A DNA stretch of 34,059 bases from a virus. The DNA lies in the IMG/VR virus record IMGVR_UViG_3300046336_000017, positions 1 through 34,059 of that record; one strand, written 5' to 3'. Below, piece after piece: positions 9,058 through 17,374 of the stretch; position 1 is the stretch's first letter; every line of letters begins with the position of its first letter. The notes below the pieces were generated by a model. It did not search any database, was not told where the DNA came from, and saw only the letters and a program-made list of their open reading frames with translations. The position numbers and the translations under genes were made by a program.

Positions 9058-9848
9058 GCATAGTCATTGTATCAGGTGCGCAAGGTACAAGCGGGGCTAA
9101 CCTGCTATATCGAAACCTATTTCTTGAGGGTACTCTTTCTGCGGTAGCTGAAAGTGCTGCAAATCCAGTAGAAAACGCATTAAGCGGTGAAACGTGGGAC
9201 TATTGGTCGCAATCTTCAGCTGGTGGCGAGTTGCGTATTGATCTAGGTTCCGCGCGAACATGTGACGGATTTGGGATATCGTCACATGACGCAGGAACTA
9301 AAGGTTCTAGGATAGTTTTGGCATATTCAACTGATGAAATTTCTTATCCAACGGCGGCAAGTCACACTCCGACTGACGATTCAACTATATTCATCGCCTT
9401 TCCGCCAATAACTGCTAGGTATTGGGTTATAAGTGTTCAGCTTGCTATATGCAATATTGGTGTAGCAATCCTAGGCCAGCGTTTACAGTTTCCGTCGGGG
9501 GTGCTGACTGGTCATACTTCAATGCACAACGCCAAGAAATCCAAGCTAATGAATACGACGACTGTTTCAGGGCAGCATAGAAACAACCGTATTACCCGCA
9601 TGGGCATCGAGGGCAAGATTGACTTTGGTCTAGTTGCCACGTCTTTCGGTGATGGTGCATTCCAAGAATTTAAGGACCATTACAATGCGGGGAAGATCTT
9701 CTTCTACGCCGGGTCGCCACTGAACTACCCCAAGGACACGGCGCTTTGCTGGCGTCCAGAAGCTGCGGGCGATATATCACCGTCATACCAAGAGGGTGGA
9801 ACGTTGATGGACTTGTCTATGGAGGTAAGTGCGTTTGTCGATACGTGA
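9054..9848 (+). CDS. Distal tail protein with discoidin-like segment
   Basis: 264 residues. The N-terminal 150 residues look like an F5/8 type C (discoidin) jelly roll: 'ETWDYWSQSSAGGELRIDLG' then 'ARTCDGFGISSHDAG', 'RIVLAYSTD' and 'ARYWVISVQ'. The C-terminal part ('GHTSMHNAKKSKLMNTT', 'RITRMGIEGKIDFGL') resembles distal tail proteins that link tube to tip. A discoidin-like domain could bind carbohydrate and help adsorption. Located immediately after the tape measure, start overlapping its stop. Domain call is by eye. Confidence 0.6.
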   Translation: MSIVIVSGAQGTSGANLLYRNLFLEGTLSAVAESAANPVENALSGETWDYWSQSSAGGELRIDLGSARTCDGFGISSHDAGTKGSRIVLAYSTDEISYPTAASHTPTDDSTIFIAFPPITARYWVISVQLAICNIGVAILGQRLQFPSGVLTGHTSMHNAKKSKLMNTTTVSGQHRNNRITRMGIEGKIDFGLVATSFGDGAFQEFKDHYNAGKIFFYAGSPLNYPKDTALCWRPEAAGDISPSYQEGGTLMDLSMEVSAFVDT

Positions 9849-14557: not shown

Positions 14558-14894
14558 CGTCCTAGGCGGGTTGGCTGGAAAGTTGGCCGATGCTTACACG
14601 GCAAAGGCCGCTGCGCAGACTGATGAGGCGCGGATTGCGGCAGGTGTGACAATTGAGCAACTACAGGCAAGGCAAGCTGCGGTGATTGCAGGAGGGCGAT
14701 GGATTGCGCCAGTTCAGGCGGCGTTCGCGGTTATGTTCTTGATTTACTACGGTAAATTACTGATTTGGGATAAGGTTCTAGGGTTAGGCGTCACTGATGG
14801 ATTGTCGCCAAGTCTGGAAAATCTGGGAATGATTGTAATTTCTTTCATATTTTTGCAGGCGGGTGTAAAAGGTGTGTTGACAGGTCGGCATTGA
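14544..14894 (+). CDS. Holin of the 3TM gene-transfer-release type
   Basis: 116 residues from GTG 14544; a GTG at 14532 gives four more residues. The start 'WFNVLGGLAGKLADAY' followed by 'TAKAAAQTDEARIAAG' is the pattern of GTA_holin_3TM proteins, with membrane segments at about 60-78, 90-100 and 94-112 by eye. Holins open the inner membrane and release the endolysin. Last gene of the lysis cluster; the TTGACA of the next promoter is in its final codons. Confidence 0.7.
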   Translation: MIWFNVLGGLAGKLADAYTAKAAAQTDEARIAAGVTIEQLQARQAAVIAGGRWIAPVQAAFAVMFLIYYGKLLIWDKVLGLGVTDGLSPSLENLGMIVISFIFLQAGVKGVLTGRH

Positions 14895-14905
14895 TGGGGT
14901 AGAAC
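14877..14905 (+). promoter_or_regulatory. Promoter of the small ORF and structured RNA
   Basis: TTGACA (14877-14882), 17-base spacer, TAGAAC (14900-14905). The -35 is perfect. It is at the 3' end of the holin gene and points to the non-coding region 15053-15660. Transcription would start near 14912, before the hairpin at 14926. Confidence 0.7.
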
Positions 14906-14944: not shown

Positions 14945-15052
14945 ATGGTCTTCGCTTTTATCGCGCTTTCGTTCTTCGCTGCAATCGACGCTGGCATGGT
15001 TCCACCTGATGCAAACTGGCATCCGACTAAGGGCGTTTCCGCGTCCGAGTGA
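14945..15052 (+). CDS. Small leader ORF (35 aa)
   Basis: 35 residues with a hydrophobic N-terminus ('MVFAFIALSFFAAIDAG') and a polar end ('NWHPTKGVSASE'). A strong GGAGG lies about nine bases upstream. The N-terminus could be a signal anchor or uncleaved signal. It is the only translated-looking part of the transcript ahead of the structured region 15064-15656. Could be a genuine micropeptide or simply a translated leader. Confidence 0.5.
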   Translation: MVFAFIALSFFAAIDAGMVPPDANWHPTKGVSASE

Positions 15053-15063
15053 TTAAGGCAGGG

Positions 15064-15659
15064 GCGCGACTGTAACGCGCAAAACTATCCGCATTTGTGG
15101 CGGGTTGCTGAATGTAGGGTCTAGCCCGCGACATCGCCTAAGCGGTGCGGCAATCTACCAGAAACGCGGTATCATAGATTGTATGTATGCGCTTGACGTT
15201 GCCATCGGCGGTTCCGACGAGTTAATTCTGCGCTACTCCAAAATATCGGAATAAGGCAATATGCCGCGTTTCCACTTATAGTCTGAAACTGATCAAAATC
15301 AGTTAGTAGGACTATTCCGGGTGCAGAATATCGCATCCCTATTTTCTACCGCGCTTGATCCGTCGCGGGATATAAGTCTGTATGGACCGGAAGTTGTAAG
15401 CCGGACATCTCACAGGGTAAAATGCATCGGGTCCAATCGGTGTTGCTAACGGATCGCCAATCAGAATAGCAGCGTCACGGAATAAACCGTGAAACTGTTA
15501 TTGCATCGCAAAAGGTGAGTTGTCTACCTTGCGAATGTATGAAAACGGCAACTTACGGCCATGCTACCCGTCGGCTGGCAAGAGATAAACCTAACTGCGT
15601 AGCGGGTGGGTTATGGCGGCCAGTGTTATGATAACCCCGTCTTTTTAGGCGGGGTTTTT
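15064..15659 (+). ncRNA. Candidate large structured non-coding RNA (about 590 nt)
   Basis: No reading frame of useful size on either strand, yet dense perfect inverted repeats. Helices read by eye: 15064-15068/15076-15080; 15100-15104/15125-15129; 15132-15137/15142-15147; 15151-15157/15175-15181; 15225-15231/15323-15329; 15247-15253/15313-15319; 15287-15293/15298-15304; 15383-15388/15430-15435; 15442-15448/15467-15473; 15475-15480/15487-15492; 15506-15509/15531-15534 with 15512-15516/15526-15530; 15558-15562/15613-15617; 15564-15570/15603-15609; and a long-range pair 15198-15203/15547-15552 that could close a central domain. Terminator at 15633. Size, nesting and phage location recall the ornate large RNA classes GOLLD and ROOL, but I cannot match either. 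Group I and II intron hallmarks are not seen. Confidence 0.65.
15633..15659 (+). terminator. Intrinsic terminator ending the structured RNA
   Basis: AACCCCGTC (15633-15641) pairs with GGCGGGGTT (15648-15656) around TTTTTA, followed by TTTTT. Confidence 0.85.
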
Positions 15660-15685
15660 CATGTTACAATGCACATGCGGTTTTC

Positions 15686-15729
15686 CCGATTGTATCCCGT
15701 GATGATACCTCCTAGTCAAAGACAATCGG
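15686..15729 (+). promoter_or_regulatory. Structured 5' leader of gene 15790
   Basis: CCGATTGT (15686-15693) and ACAATCGG (15722-15729) form a perfect 8-bp arm enclosing GTATC/GATAC (15692-15696/15704-15708). The open part contains CCTCC (15708-15712), complementary to the GGAGG before the gene, so an alternative fold could mask the ribosome binding site. The rest of 15660-15789 shows only a weak promoter-like TTTACA at 15734. Confidence 0.4.
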
Positions 15730-15773
15730 AACCTTTACAACCTTGATAAAATGTGATTAGGTGTAAGCATAGC

Positions 15774-15789: not shown

Positions 15790-16053
15790 ATGCTTAAAAT
15801 CGCCGCACTATTAACCATCATTGCCGCGCCAGCTTATGCGCTGGAATGTATGCCACGCGCTGACGCATACGAACAACTGGACGCAAAGGGATATGAACCT
15901 GTATTCATTGGTGACGCAGACGCCGCTACAATGGTCGTTTGGGTGCATCAAACAGAGGGATGGATTACGATTATTGACACGCATGACGGGCAGTCTTGTC
16001 TAGTTGCAGCAGGTCTTGACTGGCAGTTTCGCGCGTTGGGTGATCCGGTATGA
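15790..16053 (+). CDS. Small exported protein
   Basis: 87 residues with a clear Sec signal peptide (residues 1-17, 'KIAALLTIIAAPAYA', predicted cut after Ala17). The mature part has two cysteines (20 and 70) that could form a disulphide in the periplasm, plus 'GYEPVFIGDADAATMVVWV'. Function unknown; periplasmic phage proteins of this size are sometimes superinfection or lysis factors. Stop overlaps the next ATG. Confidence 0.65.
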   Translation: MLKIAALLTIIAAPAYALECMPRADAYEQLDAKGYEPVFIGDADAATMVVWVHQTEGWITIIDTHDGQSCLVAAGLDWQFRALGDPV

Positions 16054-16274
16054 ACGCAGATGATGTAACGCCAGCCCCGACAATCAATTACGCAACCGAC
16101 CCCGTATTCCAGCAATTCCAATACTTCATGAGATTGGCATTTGAGGAAGGTTATCGCGCGGGTAACTTTGGAGTAACTACACCAAACGAGTGGCGCAATG
16201 ACTGGATGAATAGCACAGGGCGTAGGTTCCTGCTAGATAACGGGCTAATCTCTGGTAAGGATTATTACAAATGA
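16050..16274 (+). CDS. Hypothetical protein
   Basis: 74 residues, polar and aromatic-rich ('FQQFQYFMRLAFEEGYRAG', 'NEWRNDWMNSTGRRFL'). No domain recognised. Overlaps the preceding and following genes by four bases each (ATGA pattern), so it is translated together with the exported protein and the phosphoesterase. Confidence 0.6.
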   Translation: MNADDVTPAPTINYATDPVFQQFQYFMRLAFEEGYRAGNFGVTTPNEWRNDWMNSTGRRFLLDNGLISGKDYYK

Positions 16275-17374
16275 TTGATTACAATGAAGAATACCTAACA
16301 AGTCCAAAGAAGTCATTCAACGTTAACGAATACGCCGCGCATCATGGTATTACAGTGCAAGCCGCATGGTCCAAGCGTAAACGCGCCAAAAAACGCGCTA
16401 CAGTTGATCCGGCAATCACCCGCGCAATGTCAGCTATCGGCACGAACATGGTTCCTAGCGTCGTTTGGGATAAGACACAGCCGGGTTATAGTGTTCTGTT
16501 GCGTCCATCGGTTGCGGACGCGGCTAACGTGCTTGAATTGGTCAAGGATGCGTTTACCGATATTCCAGCTTATCGGCCTAATCCAGTTTCACCTATCGGC
16601 AATGATCTATTTGCCGTGTATCCACTCTATGACGCTCATATCGGCATGTTGGCTTGCGGCAAGGAAACGCGCGGGCAAAACTATGATCTAAAACTTGCTG
16701 CAAAGGATATGCTTCAAGCATTTATTGACGTGTCTTCCCTAGTCCCTAGCGCGGATCGGGCGATGGTTATTCTTGGTGGAGATACATTACACATTAATGA
16801 CGGTAGCAATGAAACGCCCGCTAGTCACCACAAGCAAGACACAGACGGTAGATATGAGAAAGTAATTGACAGCGCAATCGAAATGGTTTGTCACTCCATC
16901 GAATACCTTTGCGAAAGACATGCCAAAGTCGAAATTGTAACTATTCGGGGCAACCATGATGAAAATTCCCACGTAGCGTTGAAAGTCGCACTAAAGCAGC
17001 GTTACCGACTAAGTGATCAAATCAGCTTTCCAACTGTTTCTGGCATGGAACAATCGGAAGTATTCTGGACACGGCACGGCAAGTCATTGGTCGCTATTCA
17101 TCACGGCGATAAGGCCCCGCCACAGCGCCTTTGCATGATCATTGCAGACAAGTGCGCAGAATGGTCTAACACAACTGACAGGCACGTTTTAACTGGCCAC
17201 AAGCACACGTTGCACGTACAGGACTTCCCCGGCGTTACTCACCACACATTGCGCGCGTTTGCACCTCCAGACGCTTACGGCTCTATGTTTGGCGGGCGAC
17301 GGTCTTTGACTGCAATGGTTTTTGACGCTAAGAAGGGTTTGATCTTAACAGCACAGGAACCTATTCTAAGATGA
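16271..17374 (+). CDS. Calcineurin-like metallophosphoesterase with N-terminal HTH
   Basis: 367 residues. All metal-binding motifs of the family are visible: Asp121/His123 ('YDAHIG'), GGD 169-171, GNHD 227-230, 'HHGD' 277-280 and GHKH 309-312. The two-metal centre hydrolyses phosphoesters or phosphodiesters; the substrate is unknown. An N-terminal segment ('NVNEYAAHHGITVQAAW') plus a basic stretch to residue 43 suggests DNA binding. Relatives are common in tailed phages with unclear roles. Starts overlap the gene before (ATGA). Confidence 0.8.
   Translation: MIDYNEEYLTSPKKSFNVNEYAAHHGITVQAAWSKRKRAKKRATVDPAITRAMSAIGTNMVPSVVWDKTQPGYSVLLRPSVADAANVLELVKDAFTDIPAYRPNPVSPIGNDLFAVYPLYDAHIGMLACGKETRGQNYDLKLAAKDMLQAFIDVSSLVPSADRAMVILGGDTLHINDGSNETPASHHKQDTDGRYEKVIDSAIEMVCHSIEYLCERHAKVEIVTIRGNHDENSHVALKVALKQRYRLSDQISFPTVSGMEQSEVFWTRHGKSLVAIHHGDKAPPQRLCMIIADKCAEWSNTTDRHVLTGHKHTLHVQDFPGVTHHTLRAFAPPDAYGSMFGGRRSLTAMVFDAKKGLILTAQEPILR

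Follow-up and report, generated by a model that had tools for sequence, protein, structure and literature searches.

A stretch of about 590 nt between the lysis genes and the exonuclease gene of a siphophage raises the question of whether it specifies one large ornate RNA, as the initial annotation had suggested by likening it to GOLLD and ROOL, or a series of smaller RNAs made and used separately. The window analysed here is the whole 34,059-nt (34-kb) virus record, whose genes include those for capsid, tape-measure, endolysin, beta-clamp-like, ribonucleotide reductase and PAPS reductase proteins. Its exonuclease (16271–17374) matched nothing in a search of bacterial genomes, and its best phage matches were in Sulfitobacter phages (40% identity), from which we take the host to be probably a marine alphaproteobacterium.

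A bounded, structured non-coding locus

The expectation that the stretch has no reading frame was borne out, with zero ORFs of at least 60 aa between 14894 and 15790. The sole frame ahead of the non-coding region has 40 codons (likely 35 aa from the ATG at 14945); its leader, AAACCTTGGAGGGTTT, is kept in relatives L002–L005 and L007 (L-numbers are our labels for compared sequences), and no such small ORF was seen ahead of the L008 and L112 arrays. The + strand folds to −215.6 kcal/mol against −192.7 kcal/mol in dinucleotide shuffles (z −3.96; 0 of 20 shuffles as good), and the − strand is less marked (z −2.83). Both signals proposed to flank the region were located: the intrinsic terminator was called at 15633–15656, and the promoter at 14877–14905, though missed by a consensus promoter scan, stands at the same place and spacing before the array in eight relatives, with the TTGAC core in all and exact TTGACA in every one except L002. 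Nine of nine arrays, the window's included, thus begin behind TTGAC[AC]-N17/18-TA..., and a terminator-like hairpin, of several different sequences, ends seven of the nine. The locus is a real structured non-coding phage RNA locus, probably expressed, and bounded by the promoter and the terminator (15633–15659). Its elements, including six cassettes that we call M1 to M6, are as follows.

14877–14905, + strand: sigma-70-type promoter, TTGACA-N17-TAGAAC, ahead of the array
14945–15052, + strand: small ORF of 35 aa in the transcript leader, with a hydrophobic start and a GGAGG site
15059–15080, + strand: M1, CAGGGGCGCGACTGTAACGCGC, a hairpin, possibly a small H-type pseudoknot (CAG/CUG + GCGCG/CGCGC)
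15089–15169, + strand: M2, a hairpin with a 1 × 1 mismatch ladder (CCGC.UUU.UGG.GGGUUGC) and a hypervariable apex
15161–15272, + strand: M3, closed by GAAACGCGG (15161–15169) with CCGCGTTTC (15264–15272)
15278–15338, + strand: M4, two hairpins, 15278–15315 and 15319–15338 (GGGTGC AGAATATC GCATCC)
15349–15461, + strand: M5, a new RNA family with P1, a kissing loop or pseudoknot, P4 and the 3' end ...GCUAACGGAUCGCCA
15466–15536, + strand: M6a, two hairpins (fold z −4.19, 0 of 200 shuffles)
15537–15632, + strand: M6b, an element common to the window and L112 (78% identity over 67 nt)
15633–15659, + strand: intrinsic terminator, AACCCCGTCTTTTTAGGCGGGGTTTTT, at the end of the array

Rfam returned nothing at gathering score on the 34-kb window and noise only at E 10, and when window and relatives were scanned at gathering and relaxed thresholds, nothing except tRNAs reached gathering; none of GOLLD, ROOL, OLE and HEARO, the families named beforehand, appeared between 14800 and 15900 even at E 10. 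No group I or group II intron model matched, and no ribozyme or intron core was detected. Neither ARAGORN nor Rfam RF00005 found a tRNA cloverleaf in the window, and the array DNA had no match in 50,697 phage records.

One slot, changing contents

Relatives were found by searching with the exonuclease, and share 55–93% protein identity and the same neighbourhood. All eight that we read hold a non-coding array upstream of the exonuclease, filled with differing combinations of shared cassettes, true tRNAs (Leu, Trp, Tyr) and tRNA-like RNAs, the order M1-M2-M3-M5 being mostly retained; three more distant relatives (L114, L116, L117) have mostly genes in the slot and no such array. Cassettes that pass the cloverleaf test (ARAGORN/Rfam RF00005) lie in L002 (tRNA-Leu(tag), tRNA-Leu(taa) and tRNA-Trp), L005 (tRNA-Trp), L112 (two tRNA-Leu) and L113 (tRNA-Tyr). 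L007 matches the window at 98.5% over 195 nt and 98.8% over 169 nt in the flanks and differs inside, where it has gained a tRNA-like insert, carries a different M2 apex and M4, and lacks M6. In this fixed slot, related phages exchange cassettes along with genuine tRNAs and tRNA-like RNAs.

The same relatives bear on the helices first put forward as the frame of a single molecule. All four (15225–15231/15323–15329, 15247–15253/15313–15319, the hairpin at 15287–15304 and the long-range 15198–15203/15547–15552) are present and perfectly complementary in the window, yet as parts of one conserved large RNA they do not hold up, both strands being kept in no relative; even L007, otherwise very close, retains just the first strand of three of them. 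The helices with homologue support are others, namely the M2 stem and the P1, P4 and kissing loop of M5.

Some tRNA-like occupants of the slot are unusual in themselves. One, at 2266–2362 in L002 and 859–951 in L112 (91% identity between the two phages), combines a tRNA-Tyr anticodon loop (CUGUAAA), a 7-bp end stem and CCA with a non-cloverleaf body, and was not called by ARAGORN. Another (L007 2873–2956, also in L004, L005 and L002) has a normal acceptor stem and T-arm with an abnormal anticodon arm; its L002 version carries the same ends around a different body. The tRNA-like RNAs of L007 and L004 score just under the Rfam tRNA cut-off. In L112 (1027–1129) and L113 (2778–2880) the M3 slot is taken by a tRNA-Ser-like RNA with an end stem of 10–11 bp (10 bp in L112), the 5' strand of which could instead pair with the M2 hairpin ahead of it.

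M2 and M3 share a strand

M2 was found in ten copies across nine arrays (two in L113), always as a mismatched ladder of 4 bp, mismatch, 3 bp, mismatch, 2–3 bp, mismatch and a 7–10-bp inner stem below a variable apex, a layout on which independent minimum-energy folds agree; in L005 only one of the three mismatches stays unpaired, and L008 is without most of the 3-bp step. In a hand alignment scored with our own script, 184 of 186 helix cells were paired, with 16 both-side changes against 4.5 in shuffles (0/2000). The closing helix of M3 is likewise kept with base changes (L003 CUGUGUUUC, L112 UCGCGCUC, L135 CCACACUC). Since the 3' strand of M2 is the 5' strand of M3, the two pairings are mutually exclusive, and both are conserved. 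Each of L134, L135 and L139 holds two tandem M2-M3 copies in which the shared strands are written in other letters (e.g. CCAC/GUGUGG/CCACAC vs CCGC/GCGCGG/CCGCGC) with both pairings kept. The unit shows the construction by which we define it: a hairpin with mismatches that lends its 3' strand to the following closing helix as the 5' strand. Outside this phage group, a pattern scan for the inner stem of M2 picked up just three unrelated sequences.

The apex appears to be separable from its stem. L134 and L135 share a ~39-nt apex, with a G-C to A-U compensatory pair within it, that tops an inner stem of either GAUGCAG/CUGCAUC or GGGUUGCG/CGCAAUCC, and for this reason M2 heads appear to have been swapped between stems. 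A tRNA-like reading of M2, from NCCA after its end helix, was dropped: L112 and L008 have no CCA there, and the CCA pairs with UGG.

M5 is a new RNA family

M5 is a previously unlisted, covariation-supported RNA family with a clear consensus and no Rfam entry. It is compact (about 100 nt) and in the window comprises P1 (15349–15353/15364–15368), P4 (15424–15429/15438–15443) and a kissing loop or pseudoknot (15357–15363/15449–15455, GAUCCGU/ACGGAUC). We define it by P1 with a UUGAUCCGU loop, a 6-bp P4 with a UCCA loop, and the 3' end GCUAACGGAUY-GCCA, all of which window 15349–15461 displays; its covariance score of 87.1 bits is that of one of the eight training sequences. P1 varies widely (CGCG/CGCG, CGGG/CCCG, CCGUC/GGCGG, CGUGUC/GGCACG, CCGCU/AGCGG), and P4 is a 6-bp stem of nearly free sequence under an 8-nt loop around UCCA. 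Across eight sequences 99.4% of cells pair, with 20 both-side changes against 6.9 in shuffles (0/500), and slid-alignment controls drop to 0–6. The kissing loop pairs in all eight and barely varies (one G-U); it is backed by invariance, not covariation, and that invariance is partly due to its letters having been in the search patterns, as positions so fixed cannot show variation.

The family extends well beyond this phage group. The exact pattern CGCGCTTGATCCGTCGCGG, kept in the window, L004, L005, L007 and L113, was run on 2.9 million viral contigs and found eight further contigs with the same 3' part, CUAACGGAU[CU]GCCA (CCAACGGAUCGCCA in L132), about 45–145 nt downstream, this 3' part being absent from the search pattern; a match in one coding sequence common to L129, L131, L133 and L138 was rejected as M5. 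The converse pattern, UUGAUCCGU...UAACGGAUYGCCA, which leaves the P1 and P4 stems outside it, found six more, giving 14 viral contigs outside the group. Several contigs come from the same samples and the M5 of L128, L136 and L140 are close relatives, so that independent events are fewer than entries; on the other side, the family is probably larger than counted because these were exact-pattern scans. A covariance model built from eight sequences recovered seven held-out members (E 4.5e-14 to 8e-6) and nothing besides members better than E 0.009 in the 1.2 Mb searched. The M5 pattern in 84,980 bacterial genomes gave four chance matches without M5 features, apparently inside genes, and blastn of four members against 50,697 phage records gave no credible match, those in mycobacteriophages being a 24-nt chance match inside a gene.

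M5 adjoins tRNAs in L113, L134, L135 and L139, and sequences judged tRNA-like by eye in L132 and L145, an association that is frequent and not universal. L004 and L005 have retained its P1 and lost its 3' half. The NCCA that follows its end helix (GAUCCGU/ACGGAUC then GCCA) prompted a tRNA-like reading of the window copy, and this pseudoknotted end with CCA is shared with the tRNA-like structures of plant viruses; unlike those, M5 is not at a genome end, has no Rfam match, and has a linker from P4 to the end helix that does not fit a tRNA.

A proposed processed array of stable RNAs, and its alternatives

We lean, by a modest degree, towards reading the locus as a transcription unit of stable RNAs, organised like a tRNA array, composed mostly of non-tRNA cassettes and cut into separate RNAs. 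The units are regarded as separate because they turn up singly, in tandem and in changed order, and because the long-range helices named at first are not conserved; at least two, M2-M3 and M5, keep their structure by compensatory change. The transcript would arise late, from the array's own promoter, and RNases of the host, those for tRNA processing among them, would cut it into separate stable RNAs acting in trans, transcription and processing in the manner of a tRNA operon being the simplest and most likely mechanism. Given the shared strand, M2 would be the first to fold as the transcript emerges, and its outer stem would be displaced once the 3' strand of M3 appears, exposing the products one after another. 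M5 would fold by pairing of its P1 loop GAUCCGU with the 3' loop ACGGAUC, giving a compact RNA in which a partner would meet the conserved UCCA loop of P4 and the joint UAUA-AAGU. The RNA may in part be integrated, in that the minimum-energy prediction for the whole region allows a single fold to be drawn and the order M1-M2-M3-M5 is largely preserved.

Non-tRNA RNAs among phage tRNAs have a precedent in the T4 tRNA cluster, which contains the stable RNAs C and D; from these M5 would differ in its kissing loop and in having P1 and P4 stems that covary. Phage tRNA arrays are reported to replace or shield tRNA when host defences cleave it (PMC10264068, PMC11555353, PMC13096335). The present locus is like such arrays in its one transcribed slot, its RNA units gained and lost, its tRNA-Tyr, Leu and Trp, and the homing endonucleases near some copies; it differs in that the window is without a true tRNA and its units are new structured RNAs. 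A role in countering host tRNA-cleaving defences, or one otherwise related to tRNA, is suggested by the neighbouring tRNAs and tRNA-like RNAs, by homing or HNH endonucleases near some M5, and by constant stems with variable interiors. The likeliest use would be to sustain translation or counter defence in the infected cell as replacement, decoy or inhibitor RNAs; this step, drawn by analogy with phage tRNAs, is the weakest of the scheme, and would explain why stems stay constant while interiors change fast. A bolder version, which we regard as speculative and rather unlikely, is a modular RNA counter-defence island, with constant stems as chassis, swapped variable heads and M5 as a trans-acting RNA binding a host tRNA-handling or defence factor. 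The arrays show phages exchanging structured RNAs as cassettes within a slot that tRNAs also occupy, and the presence of M5 in many unrelated phages suggests interchangeable RNA tools carried alongside phage tRNAs, making directly testable the long-standing question of what phage non-coding RNAs beside tRNAs do.

Strand exchange between M2 and M3 is attenuator-like, and the downstream genes run in the same direction, so the array might be a cis-regulatory leader for the genes from 15790 onward with the exchange as its switch. We consider this unlikely: the array has its own terminator ~130 nt before the next gene, its cassettes are tandemly repeated and replaced by tRNAs, and in L142 the gene after M5 lies on the opposite strand, so that M5 is not simply a leader.

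A single ornate RNA of the GOLLD or ROOL type, with a tRNA-holding variable region and perhaps assembling into a cage, is quite improbable. GOLLD and ROOL are phage or prophage RNAs near tRNA islands, and GOLLD linkers sometimes contain tRNAs (PMC12286853); size, complexity, variable parts and a large non-coding phage locus with tRNAs beside or within it are common ground, and kissing loops could join molecules. What stands of the first comparison is thus a structured non-coding phage locus with tRNAs near in relatives. The single ~590-nt RNA does not stand, because cassettes are gained and lost independently and replaced by tRNAs and the long-range closing helices are not conserved; there is moreover no Rfam or other sequence or covariance match and no conserved 3' domain, and the units are separate and shuffled, M5 occurring alone in unrelated phages and M2-M3 being missing at many M5 loci and tandem in others.

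We are more doubtful still that these are mobile or homing-endonuclease-linked RNA elements spreading between phages, M5 especially. HNH, endonuclease VII-like or homing endonuclease genes do lie near M5 in L128, L137, L145 and L141, and a cassette of phage phiM9 (below) is near a GIY-YIG gene, but a constant link was not borne out: most copies have no nuclease gene nearby, none adjoins the window's array, and no catalytic core was found. Least probable of all is a decaying tRNA cluster of functionless leftovers of old tRNA genes, which true tRNAs in the relatives' slot and the near-threshold RNAs of L007 and L004 would fit and which could hold for single cassettes such as M6, but which the covariation contradicts for M2 and M5, their compensatory changes and the recurrence of M5 in unrelated phages requiring selection, as it is opposed by the kept promoter and terminators.

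Other cassettes and neighbouring elements

M1 occurs in 46 viral contigs outside the group, mostly AT-rich, where it lies nearly always past a stop codon and shortly ahead of an ATG; its rare variants, CAGGC...CCUG in L088 for instance, are consistent with a tiny H-type pseudoknot. Among 19 M1 contigs scanned no Rfam family matched M1, and in two M1-carrying contigs Rfam found abiF and one tRNA. M4 folds more stably than all 200 shuffles (z −4.25, 0/200), and its second hairpin is also in L113. No homologue of M6a was found. M6b is the window array's 3'-terminal element and lies at the opposite, 5' end of the array in L112, its stability does not exceed shuffles, and a pattern scan returned L112's contig only.

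Another cassette, at 9406–9503 in L139, has 84% identity to the isolated Sinorhizobium phage phiM9 (L152 5001–5098), where it lies between annotated genes. It has a T-arm-like hairpin and GACAGC-CGGAGAGACGGC, and 23 nt of it also match a stretch of Mannheimia phage 587AP2 that carries the annotation 'promoter'.

Between the array and the ORF at 15790, a conserved inverted repeat (15679–15735) sets CCGATTGT...ACAATCGG around ATACCTCCTA, with counterparts in most relatives read, including the array-less L114 and L117; a CCTCC in this region resembles the 3' end of 16S rRNA.
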